IMG/VR virus record: IMGVR_UViG_3300027782_000159
Location: 1 to 40,069 of that record
Length of the DNA stretch: 40,069 nucleotides
From: a virus
Reading direction: 5' to 3' (one strand)
How positions within the stretch are numbered: position 1 is the stretch's first letter; every line of letters starts with the position of its first letter. The notes beneath the pieces are model-generated. The model saw nothing but the letters and a program-made list of their open reading frames with translations. It was not told the origin of the DNA and searched no databases. Both the position numbers and the translations under genes were made by a program. Below are positions 1,081-33,358 of the stretch, in pieces.

Positions 1081-1109
1081 TTGACCTTTCCATGCAACTC
1101 ATACATAAT
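1081..1109 (+). promoter_or_regulatory. Sigma70-like promoter for uvsW
   Basis: TTGACC (1081-1086), 17 bp spacer, CATAAT (1104-1109), 20 bp before the uvsW start codon. It lies in the short gap between two divergent genes. A small hairpin (ATTTAGGC with GCCT..AAAT, about 1033-1056) sits beside it. Confidence 0.6.
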
Positions 1110-1128: not shown

Positions 1129-2565
1129 ATGGAAAAAGACACGATACTCATAATAGAGAACGATTTCTGCCAACTCGTAACGACCAACGGAAAGCTCAAG
1201 CACACCCTCTGGGATTGCCTTCGTTTTCGTGAACGCAACTATTTCCACAGCAGGCTCTACAAGCAGAAACTGTGGGACGGGTACACCGAGTTCTTCAAGA
1301 AAGAAACCGGGAGATTCCTCACGGGGCTGCTTCCGGAGGTCAAGGCGGCGATGAAACACTTCGAGATAGACGCCGAGGTGAGGGACAACAGGACGAATGT
1401 CGATTTCAGGCACGACGAGATAAACCACAGCTTCCTCAACTCATGGCTTCCCGAGGGCATGGACAGGATAACCCTCCACGACTACCAGGTCGAACTCATA
1501 AACCAGTCGATAAAGCACCGTCGAGGAGTGGTCTACGCCCCGACGAGCGCGGGCAAGACCTTCATCATGCTCGGCATACTCAAGGCTCTCCCCCCGAACA
1601 CGCCGACCCTAATCCTGCAGAACAGGGTCGGTCTGGCTGAGCAGAACTACTCCGAGCTGTCCAAGTGGGGGTTCGAGAACCTCGGAAGGCTGTGGGGCGG
1701 GAAATTCGATCCGAACATCGTGACCGTAGCCAGCGTCCAGTCCGTCGAGAAGATAGAGAAGGAACTCCCGAAGATAAAAGTCCTGATAGTCGACGAGATA
1801 CACGACATGATGTCCGCGACCCCGAAGGGCGTCTACAAGAAGCTCAAGGGCGCCGGCGTACGCATAGCGATCAGCGCCACCCCGTTCAAGTTCGGCGAGA
1901 CCGACAAATGCCAGAAACACCTCGTGAAGGGTTTTTTCGGACCGGTGCTGAAGATAAAGTCGGCGGAGGGCGGCGTGCTTACGACCGCGAAACTGCAGGA
2001 GCGTGGCATACTCTCGTCCAGCAAATGCGTTTTCTACCCGGTGAGCGAGCCGAGGATACCGCACGACATATACATCGACGCCGTCACCAGGGGCATAGCA
2101 CAGAACCAGATGCTCAACGACATGGTGACCAAGATAGCCAGGAAGTGTTCCGGGAGGACGCTCATACTGGTCGACCGCATAGCCCACGGGGACAAGCTCA
2201 GCGAGCTCATACCAAACTCGCTCTGGGTGCAGGGGAGCGACAACTCCGAGACCAGGAAGAAAGTCATATTGGAGCTGCAGAAGTCCAAGAAGTCGGTTGT
2301 CGCCATAGCGACCCAGCAGATATTCAACACGGGCATAAACGTCTACTGCCACAACCTCATAAACGCCGCCGGGGGTCAGGCTGACCACCAGATCATCCAG
2401 AGGATGGGAAGGGGTCTGAGGACTGCGAATGACAAGGACGGGCTCAGCTACTACGATTTCACGTTCGACATAAACCCGTACCTCCTGGAACACAGCAACA
2501 AGAGGATATCCATCCTGAGGAAGGAAGGTCACGAGGTCGACGTCCGCGAGGCTTTCGACCTATGA
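1129..2565 (+). CDS. uvsW: UvsW-like superfamily II helicase
   Basis: 478 residues, close to T4 UvsW (about 500). Seen: a UvsW-type N-terminal region to about residue 110, then HDYQVELI (Q-motif-like), Walker A APTSAGKTF, Walker B/DEAH-type VDEIHDM, motif III ISATPFK and motif VI QRMGRGLRT near the C-terminus. In T4, UvsW unwinds R-loops, Holliday junctions and stalled forks and drives the switch from origin- to recombination-dependent replication. The ATG at 1129 has AAGGA 6 nt upstream; the in-frame TTG at 1081 falls in the promoter. The last 4 bp overlap the next gene (ATGA), so translation is probably coupled. Confidence 0.9.
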   Translation: MEKDTILIIENDFCQLVTTNGKLKHTLWDCLRFRERNYFHSRLYKQKLWDGYTEFFKKETGRFLTGLLPEVKAAMKHFEIDAEVRDNRTNVDFRHDEINHSFLNSWLPEGMDRITLHDYQVELINQSIKHRRGVVYAPTSAGKTFIMLGILKALPPNTPTLILQNRVGLAEQNYSELSKWGFENLGRLWGGKFDPNIVTVASVQSVEKIEKELPKIKVLIVDEIHDMMSATPKGVYKKLKGAGVRIAISATPFKFGETDKCQKHLVKGFFGPVLKIKSAEGGVLTTAKLQERGILSSSKCVFYPVSEPRIPHDIYIDAVTRGIAQNQMLNDMVTKIARKCSGRTLILVDRIAHGDKLSELIPNSLWVQGSDNSETRKKVILELQKSKKSVVAIATQQIFNTGINVYCHNLINAAGGQADHQIIQRMGRGLRTANDKDGLSYYDFTFDINPYLLEHSNKRISILRKEGHEVDVREAFDL

Positions 2566-2873
2566 ACACCCCTGAATTCGAGAAATCGTTCTACGACAGC
2601 CAGATAGATCTCATGTGCGAACGCTACTCGTCGGTGTTCAGGAAATGGAACATGAAATGGGAAAGCTTCTTCTCCATGGTGTCCGTGAAGCTCAAGGGCA
2701 ACCCGTACAAGACGTGGATATTCCTTTTCGGTCTCGAGCCGGTTCTCCGCGAGTGCGGCAGGATAAAGAACCGGTCCGACAGGGTGTCAGCCCTCAAGGC
2801 GACCACCCAGAAGAGGCTCATGTCCCTCACGAAGGGTGATGACGACATAAGGTTTTACATAAACAACATCTGA
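2562..2873 (+). CDS. Small unknown protein coupled to UvsW
   Basis: 103 residues, predicted mostly helical, rich in Lys, Arg and aromatic residues. Its ATG overlaps the uvsW stop by 4 bp. In T4 a small helical protein (UvsW.1) also follows uvsW; position and size make that comparison attractive, but no diagnostic residues support it. A role together with UvsW is inferred from coupling only. Confidence 0.75.
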   Translation: MNTPEFEKSFYDSQIDLMCERYSSVFRKWNMKWESFFSMVSVKLKGNPYKTWIFLFGLEPVLRECGRIKNRSDRVSALKATTQKRLMSLTKGDDDIRFYINNI

Positions 2874-2888
2874 AGCATTGAAAAAAAT

Positions 2889-2919
2889 ATCCCCCAAGCC
2901 TTATAACTCTATGGGGGAT
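2889..2919 (+). promoter_or_regulatory. Hairpin that hides the HNH ribosome site, with a TTATAA promoter in its loop
   Basis: ATCCCCCA (2889-2896) pairs perfectly with TGGGGGAT (2912-2919). The 15-nt loop begins exactly with AGCCTTATAAC (2897-2907), the motif also found upstream of the gp32 and prkA genes. The 3' arm holds the GGGGG ribosome-binding site of the HNH gene, whose ATG is at 2925. Read-through transcripts from uvsW would fold and hide this site. A transcript started from the loop promoter would lack the 5' arm. T4 I-TevI is controlled in this way. Confidence 0.6.
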
Positions 2920-2924
2920 CAAAC

Positions 2925-3194
2925 ATGAGAAAGACGATAAACAAGATAGCCAAGAAACATACCGAGGGCAAGTGCCAGCTGTGCGGTGAATCCGACTACG
3001 CCGTCCTGGACTGCCACAGGATAGTCCCGGGGGAGGATGGCGGCGAGTACAGCGACTTCAACACCGTGGTGCTCTGCTCGAACTGCCACAGGAAAGTGCA
3101 CGACGGTCAGATCGTGATGGACAGGAAGTACCAGACGCTGGAGGGGAGGTGGGTCCTGCGGTATACCGTCGGCGACGAGGAAAAGTGGACTTGA
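2925..3194 (+). CDS. HNH endonuclease (small, free-standing)
   Basis: 89 residues. A treble-clef/HNH layout is visible: CQLC (17-20), the HNH histidine in DCHRIV (H31), N46 in the SDFNTVVLC stretch, CSNC (51-54) and the final His pair H55/H59. Such proteins nick or cut DNA and in phages often act as homing endonucleases. The neighbours are an intact uvsW block on one side and a minus-strand gene abutting its stop on the other, typical of a free-standing homing gene dropped between genes. See the overlapping hairpin entry for its control. Confidence 0.85.
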   Translation: MRKTINKIAKKHTEGKCQLCGESDYAVLDCHRIVPGEDGGEYSDFNTVVLCSNCHRKVHDGQIVMDRKYQTLEGRWVLRYTVGDEEKWT

Positions 3195-3491
3195 TCATCT
3201 CATCTCGAGCTGATCGGCGATCTGCTTGACTATGTCGAACACCGTGCCGGGCTTTTCCGAGTCTATCCTCGACATGACGTCATCCCTCGATTTCCTCGTG
3301 AGGCTGGCGAACGACCCCATCGACTTGATCCTAGCCTTGAGCGAGGCTGTGTCGAACACTTCTATGGGGGTGTCCTCGGCGACTTTAGACGAGTCGCTTG
3401 TCTTGATGGCGGAAAGCGACGAGACGACCTCGTCCCTCACGTCTTCGAAGTCGGATCTCGACTCCAGCCACTGCCTGAATGTTTTTTCCAT
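3195..3491 (-). CDS. Unknown small protein with an F-x-x-W-L leader
   Basis: 98 residues. It starts MEKTFRQWLESRSDFED, resembling the leader of several other small proteins in this window (28684, 31553, 31855) and T4 capsid-targeting sequences. The rest is polar, Ser-rich and probably helical. Its stop codon directly abuts the stop of the convergent HNH gene. An AGGG lies only 2 nt before the ATG, so the ribosome site is poor. A packaged internal-protein role is inferred only from the leader. Confidence 0.65.
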   Translation of the reverse strand: MEKTFRQWLESRSDFEDVRDEVVSSLSAIKTSDSSKVAEDTPIEVFDTASLKARIKSMGSFASLTRKSRDDVMSRIDSEKPGTVFDIVKQIADQLEMR

Positions 3492-3545
3492 GCCCTATCT
3501 ATGGAACACGGGCGACAATTACGCCACAAACAACTATATAGATTT

Positions 3546-15150: not shown

Positions 15151-15161
15151 AGCCTTATAAC
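15151..15161 (+). promoter_or_regulatory. AGCCTTATAAC promoter candidate for gp32
   Basis: Identical to the motif in the HNH hairpin loop (2897-2907). It stands between the terminator of the previous gene and a hairpin that starts 10 bp downstream at 15171, so transcription would begin at or next to that hairpin. Confidence 0.5.
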
Positions 15162-15170
15162 GATGAAAAG

Positions 15171-15225
15171 GGATTGGGGGAATGTCTCCCAGTCCAAACT
15201 TTTGTGTAACTTTTGTGTAACTTTT
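15171..15225 (+). promoter_or_regulatory. Probable autoregulatory leader of gp32
   Basis: A stem GGATTGGG (15171-15178) with CCCAGTCC (15188-15195) is followed by an unstructured U-rich tandem repeat: AACTTTTGTGT at 15197-15207 and 15208-15218, then AACTTTT at 15219-15225, ending just before the GAGGTG ribosome site of the gene at 15244. In T4, gp32 represses its own translation by nucleating at a 5' pseudoknot and spreading over unstructured repeats toward the ribosome site. The layout here is the same, though no pseudoknot pairing was found. Confidence 0.5.
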
Positions 15226-15243
15226 AACCTACGAGGTGTAACG

Positions 15244-33347: not shown

Positions 33348-33358
33348 AGCCTTATAAT
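33348..33358 (+). promoter_or_regulatory. AGCCTTATAAT promoter candidate for the prkA operon
   Basis: Third copy of AGCCTTATAA in the window, placed 36 bp before the prkA ATG in a short intergenic gap. A weak GTGG/CCAC stem follows at 33364-33384. Confidence 0.5.

Follow-up and report, generated by a model that had tools for sequence, protein, structure and literature searches.

Genes and signals at the HNH locus

The window, meaning the whole 40,069-nucleotide stretch of DNA analysed here (a 40-kb virus record), carries a UvsW-like helicase gene and a 103-aa open reading frame (ORF) that are both co-directional with a small HNH endonuclease-like gene, and 51 nt lie between this ORF and the HNH start. 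The features of the locus are as follows:

1100-1108, plus strand: late-promoter-like CATACATAA (CATAGATAA in contig G001), score 9.98, 29 nt before uvsW
1129-2565, plus strand: UvsW-like helicase gene (Pfam ResIII/DEAD/Helicase_C; PHROG DNA helicase)
2562-2873, plus strand: 103-aa ORF between uvsW and the HNH gene, no family match
2878-2883, plus strand: TTGAAA, a sigma70 -35-like box, 18 nt before the loop box
2889-2896, plus strand: 5' arm of the hairpin, ATCCCCCA
2897-2911, plus strand: 15-nt loop AGCCTTATAACTCTA, which starts exactly with AGCCTTATAAC
2902-2907, plus strand: TATAAC, a putative sigma70 -10-like box in the loop
2912-2919, plus strand: 3' arm of the hairpin, TGGGGGAT, which pairs with ATCCCCCA and holds the Shine-Dalgarno-like GGGGGA
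2925-3194, plus strand: HNH endonuclease-like gene, 89 aa (Pfam PF01844, E 7.9e-8; alignments)
3195-3491, minus strand: convergent 98-aa gene with the capsid-targeting-like N-terminus MEKTFRQWLES, preceded by late-like CATAGATAG
3495-3503: late-like CATAGATAG before the 98-aa gene

The PF01844 match reaches 32.8 bits (curated cut-off 21.4), and alignments show the HNH/zinc-binding residues C17, C20, H31, N46, C51, H55, and H59 to be conserved. The 103-aa ORF was considered as a counterpart of T4 UvsW.1 and rejected for lack of detectable similarity to T4 UvsW/UvsW.1. The position of the HNH gene varies among phages, and neither an interrupted target nor an empty homing site was defined in relatives. 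The gene that follows it has a capsid-targeting-like N-terminus (M..F..[WFY][LIF], compared here with T4 MKTYQEFIAEA) at 25 of 52 non-redundant loci (L103-L238); among the genes of five such phages, the share is 10% (Fisher p ~1e-10, ignoring kinship). These counts suggest a link of the HNH family to late, head-targeted proteins.

At the edge of the window, a coding sequence for collagen-like Gly-X-Y repeats occupies positions 1-450 of the minus strand and gives several shifted repeat matches when compared with G001.

A conserved hairpin over the HNH ribosome site

The initial annotation had described a perfect 8-bp stem with the HNH ribosome site in its 3' arm and a loop opening exactly with a recurring motif, and both descriptions are accurate: positions 2889-2896 pair without mismatch with 2912-2919, GGGGGA lies inside the latter, AGCCTTATAAC begins at 2897, and the HNH ATG follows at 2925. 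A simple score for stems that overlap the ribosome site gives 21 for this hairpin (p = 0.007 in dinucleotide shuffles of the 75-nt upstream region), which puts it in the top 2-4% of genes of the same phage. The 131-nt region as a whole folds no better than its shuffles and was rejected as a structured RNA, and the fold shuffle tests concern short segments chosen post hoc; gene caller and promoter scores are simple and home-made. Rarity of the stem alone is suggestive, not decisive, and the hairpin convinces because it is conserved.

The window is 95% identical to one end of the 189-kb contig G001, its sole close relative, so that covariation within its own lineage rests on four changes; a search of the annotated phage collection for direct DNA relatives of the window returned none. 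In G001, the element reads CTCCCTCA-AACCTTATAACTCTA-TGGGGGGG, and while 4 of the 16 stem bases differ from the window, all 8 pairs are kept, one of them with both bases changed and two in the form of G-U. According to simulation, four changes would leave 8 of 8 pairs intact with a chance of 0.015-0.05. The sense RNA hairpin is equally stable in the window and G001 (-12.3 and -12.0 kcal/mol, respectively), whereas its antisense counterpart drops from -15.2 to -7.6 kcal/mol (z -0.3 in G001). Since G-U pairs hold the sense stem and weaken the antisense one, this pattern supports selection of the hairpin as a sense-strand RNA and speaks against selection for a minus-strand terminator or for an inverted repeat in the DNA. 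We thus confirm a hairpin over the HNH ribosome site whose stem covaries and is specific to the sense strand. That it hides this site, as had been proposed, is well supported by the verified stem, its rarity in shuffles, and the pairs kept in a 95%-identical genome.

Similar hairpins precede other members of the HNH family. The homologues in L110, L111, L114, and L122 (52-57% identity) lie in other genome contexts and have their ribosome site within a hairpin around TAGATATKATTCTR, with fold z values of -2.6 for L111, -4.4 for L114, and -4.1 for L122. A 15-nt loop as in the window is found in L103, L110, and L111, and when the stems of these four sequences are compared, 93.8% of cells pair, against at most 68% in slid registers, and two pairs have changed on both sides. 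L110, L111, L114, and L122 form a supported clade apart from that of the window, and hairpins are present, too, in L104, L106 (p 0.052), and L207, the close kin of the window, so this device would be either old in the family or gained repeatedly. The initial annotation had suggested a search for the same arrangement before other HNH genes, and we find a ribosome-site hairpin at p<0.05 in 11 of 53 non-redundant HNH representatives (21%); among 540 control genes from these phages, the figure is 5.4%. A scan of the genome collection added one useful relative, L193.

Most relatives have a divergent gene upstream of HNH. In L104, L110, L114, L132, L193, L207, L221, and L227, the product of this divergent gene is a short protein with a sequence resembling a signal peptide, and it is cysteine-rich in L110.

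Promoter-like signals in the loop and before uvsW

The boxes TTGAAA-18-TATAAC reach a two-box score of 9.4, are identical in G001, and match the sigma70 consensus at 10 of 12 positions. Shuffled sequences yield a 10/12 match with its -10 box in the loop region at a rate of 0.34%, and by sigma70 score the HNH gene comes no higher than 5th among the 50 genes of the window. The geometry of these boxes predicts a transcript start at about 2913-2915; it supports the earlier proposal that RNA from a loop promoter would lack the 5' arm, with the start itself being a prediction. RNA begun at 2914 folds as nearly unstructured (-1.8 kcal/mol). Use of the promoter, its start site, the effect on translation, and the timing are all inferred from such sequence signals.

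The loop motif had also been said to precede two other gene blocks. Indeed, AGCCTTATAAC recurs exactly at 15151 before a gp32-like gene and, with its last letter changed to T, at 33348 ahead of a PrkA-like gene, but of the three sites only CTTATAA[CT] is kept in G001, which places the leading AGC outside the conserved motif. This core occurs 5 times upstream of genes, a count that only 4 of 400 permuted 8-mers reach. Before the gp32-like gene, CTTATAAC is found as well, just ahead of a leader hairpin and repeats. As for the loop motif of the L110 group, a general promoter role was considered and rejected: it occurs once per genome, and 4 of its 15 exact matches in viral contigs lie before HNH genes, all of them already known.

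Two of these sites have features of their own. The gp32-like leader (window 15160-15243; L093 15407-15522) consists of a stable hairpin GGGATTGGGGGAATGTCTCCCAGTCC, tandem TTTTGTGTAAC repeats (the window has 2, G001 has 5), and then the ribosome site, and it may be a gp32-style autoregulatory RNA. The PrkA-like serine protein kinase gene (PF08298/PF06798; 33395-35467), is here carried by a phage, and the two genes after it have their matches in phage families whose function is unknown.

Motif discovery in 161 upstream regions of G001 yielded [CA]ATA[TG]ATA[TG] in ~47% of them, and this motif, found in G001 and the window, is a variant of the late promoters TATAAATA and NATAAATA (PMC2984593). 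It is concentrated 10-60 nt before gene starts and enriched before genes with capsid-targeting-like N-termini (13/27 vs 45/206, p 0.0075); large proteins tested as a means of naming structural genes gave no structural-family match. We infer a late class for [CA]ATA[TG]ATA from its resemblance to TATAAATA/NATAAATA, its position, and its enrichment before capsid-targeting-like N-termini. The late-like motif is present at the two neighbours on the downstream side of the HNH gene. Over the HNH loop, by contrast, it scores at most 0.9 in the window and G001 (0.1% genome threshold ~7). The claim of a late loop promoter is thus not supported by the phage's own late-like motif or the 10/12 sigma70 fit, the hairpin falls outside a strict late-promoter class on the promoter feature tested, and the loop box looks like a host-type sigma70 rather than a phage late element. 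Loops of relatives differ in this respect: that of L110/L111 holds late-like AGTAGATAT (score 8.1) and also TATKAT with TTGATG 16 nt upstream, and that of L215 holds AATATATAG.

The late-like motif does occur before uvsW, the presumed source of read-through RNA, in both genomes, where it is overlapped by sigma70-like TTGACC-17-CATAAT, so that uvsW could be active both early and late. A late promoter drives uvsW in T4 (PMC3016281). Read-through from uvsW, proposed to be early, may hence be late, and with a late-like motif at uvsW and a sigma70-like box in the loop, the timing in this phage more probably runs opposite to that of I-TevI.

Known ribosome-site hairpins and competing explanations

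Ribosome-site hairpins that form only on long transcripts have been described for I-TevI, I-TevII, I-TevIII, segB, and mobE (PMC2988022) as well as for T4 genes e and soc (PMC3014915). Exclusion of long transcripts by such hairpins is thus established, and the HNH hairpin belongs to a known kind, possibly as a variant of reversed polarity. The initial annotation had likened it to I-TevI of the T4 td intron, and the architecture bears this out: the ribosome site lies in the 3' arm, both arms are present on long upstream RNA, and the I-TevI promoter lies inside the hairpin so that local RNA lacks the 5' arm (PMC2988022), as predicted for the HNH leader. For late timing, the likeness is not supported. 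I-TevI is a GIY-YIG intron endonuclease with a T4 late-class promoter, whereas here a free-standing HNH gene follows a loop with a sigma70-like box and without the phage's late motif. MobE of Aeromonas phage Aeh1 is likewise an HNH endonuclease with its ribosome site in a hairpin (PMC2988022), but its gene interrupts a ribonucleotide reductase gene, while the HNH gene here follows uvsW with no interrupted target identified. On long RNA, the ribosome site of T4 e (lysozyme) is hidden and local transcripts escape (PMC3014915), as is predicted here; its leader hairpin scores 23.8 in the same stem test (11 bp, 8-nt loop) and differs in holding the late promoter TATAAATA and in serving an unrelated gene product.

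We favour, at a probability of roughly 0.5, a cis-acting RNA hairpin that would hide the HNH ribosome site on any RNA entering from upstream (uvsW and the 103-aa ORF), combined with a loop promoter whose -10-like box would start host-type RNA at about 2913-2915, within the 3' arm. Lacking the 5' arm, this RNA would leave the ribosome site open, so that RNA begun locally would be the only source of HNH protein, whose expression would more likely be tied to early or host-type transcription, with late read-through RNA kept silent. What counts against this explanation is the divergent upstream gene of most relatives, which leaves no simple read-through to silence. The specific form of a reversed I-TevI switch, with the nuclease silent on late uvsW read-through and translated only from an early host-type loop promoter, is offered tentatively.

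A classic switch of the T4 I-TevI type, with a late promoter in the loop, silent early read-through, and late HNH expression, has in its favour the same architecture in I-TevI, segB, mobE, and T4 e, the late-like loop boxes of L110/L111 and L215, and TATAACTC, which matches T4 TATAAATA at 6 of 8 positions. It nevertheless appears unlikely, given that the loop in the window stays far below the threshold for the phage's own late-like motif and that this motif sits before uvsW itself. Alternatively, the hairpin could just lower or gate HNH translation, be it at a constant low level or until a protein, temperature, or a small RNA releases it, with the box being no promoter. Several relatives indeed have ribosome-site hairpins without a promoter-like loop (e.g., L104, L207, and L227) and the upstream gene is usually divergent, but we consider gating without a promoter rather unlikely in view of the rarity of the sigma70-like pair in shuffles and the enrichment of CTTATAA[CT] upstream of genes, including directly before the gp32 leader.

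It is quite improbable that the element is mainly a terminator for the opposite strand, since the antisense stem is broken in G001 while the sense stem is kept, and the same hairpin is found in HNH relatives far from uvsW. Such a terminator could be a remnant of the conserved two-way terminator reported after uvsW.1 in T4-like phages (PMC1524935), and on the minus strand of the window the stem, which folds at -15.2 kcal/mol, is followed by ATATTTTTTTC. Least credible of all is a DNA operator through which the HNH protein represses itself, for which I-TevI, a repressor of its own late promoter (PMC2988022), provides a precedent and L114, with an 11-bp near-perfect inverted repeat over a promoter-like box, a candidate; G-U pairs in L103, L110, and L122 hold RNA pairing and break DNA symmetry.

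The favoured explanation, a hairpin hiding the ribosome site around a loop promoter, would take a control device of T4, Aeh1, and their near relatives into an uncultured, divergent group of T4-like phages and into a new HNH family, in which it is kept by compensatory change. The loops compared here suggest that the class of the loop promoter can be swapped between lineages, changing the timing and leaving the hairpin unchanged. If the reversed switch is true, one hairpin architecture would serve opposite timing in different phage lineages.
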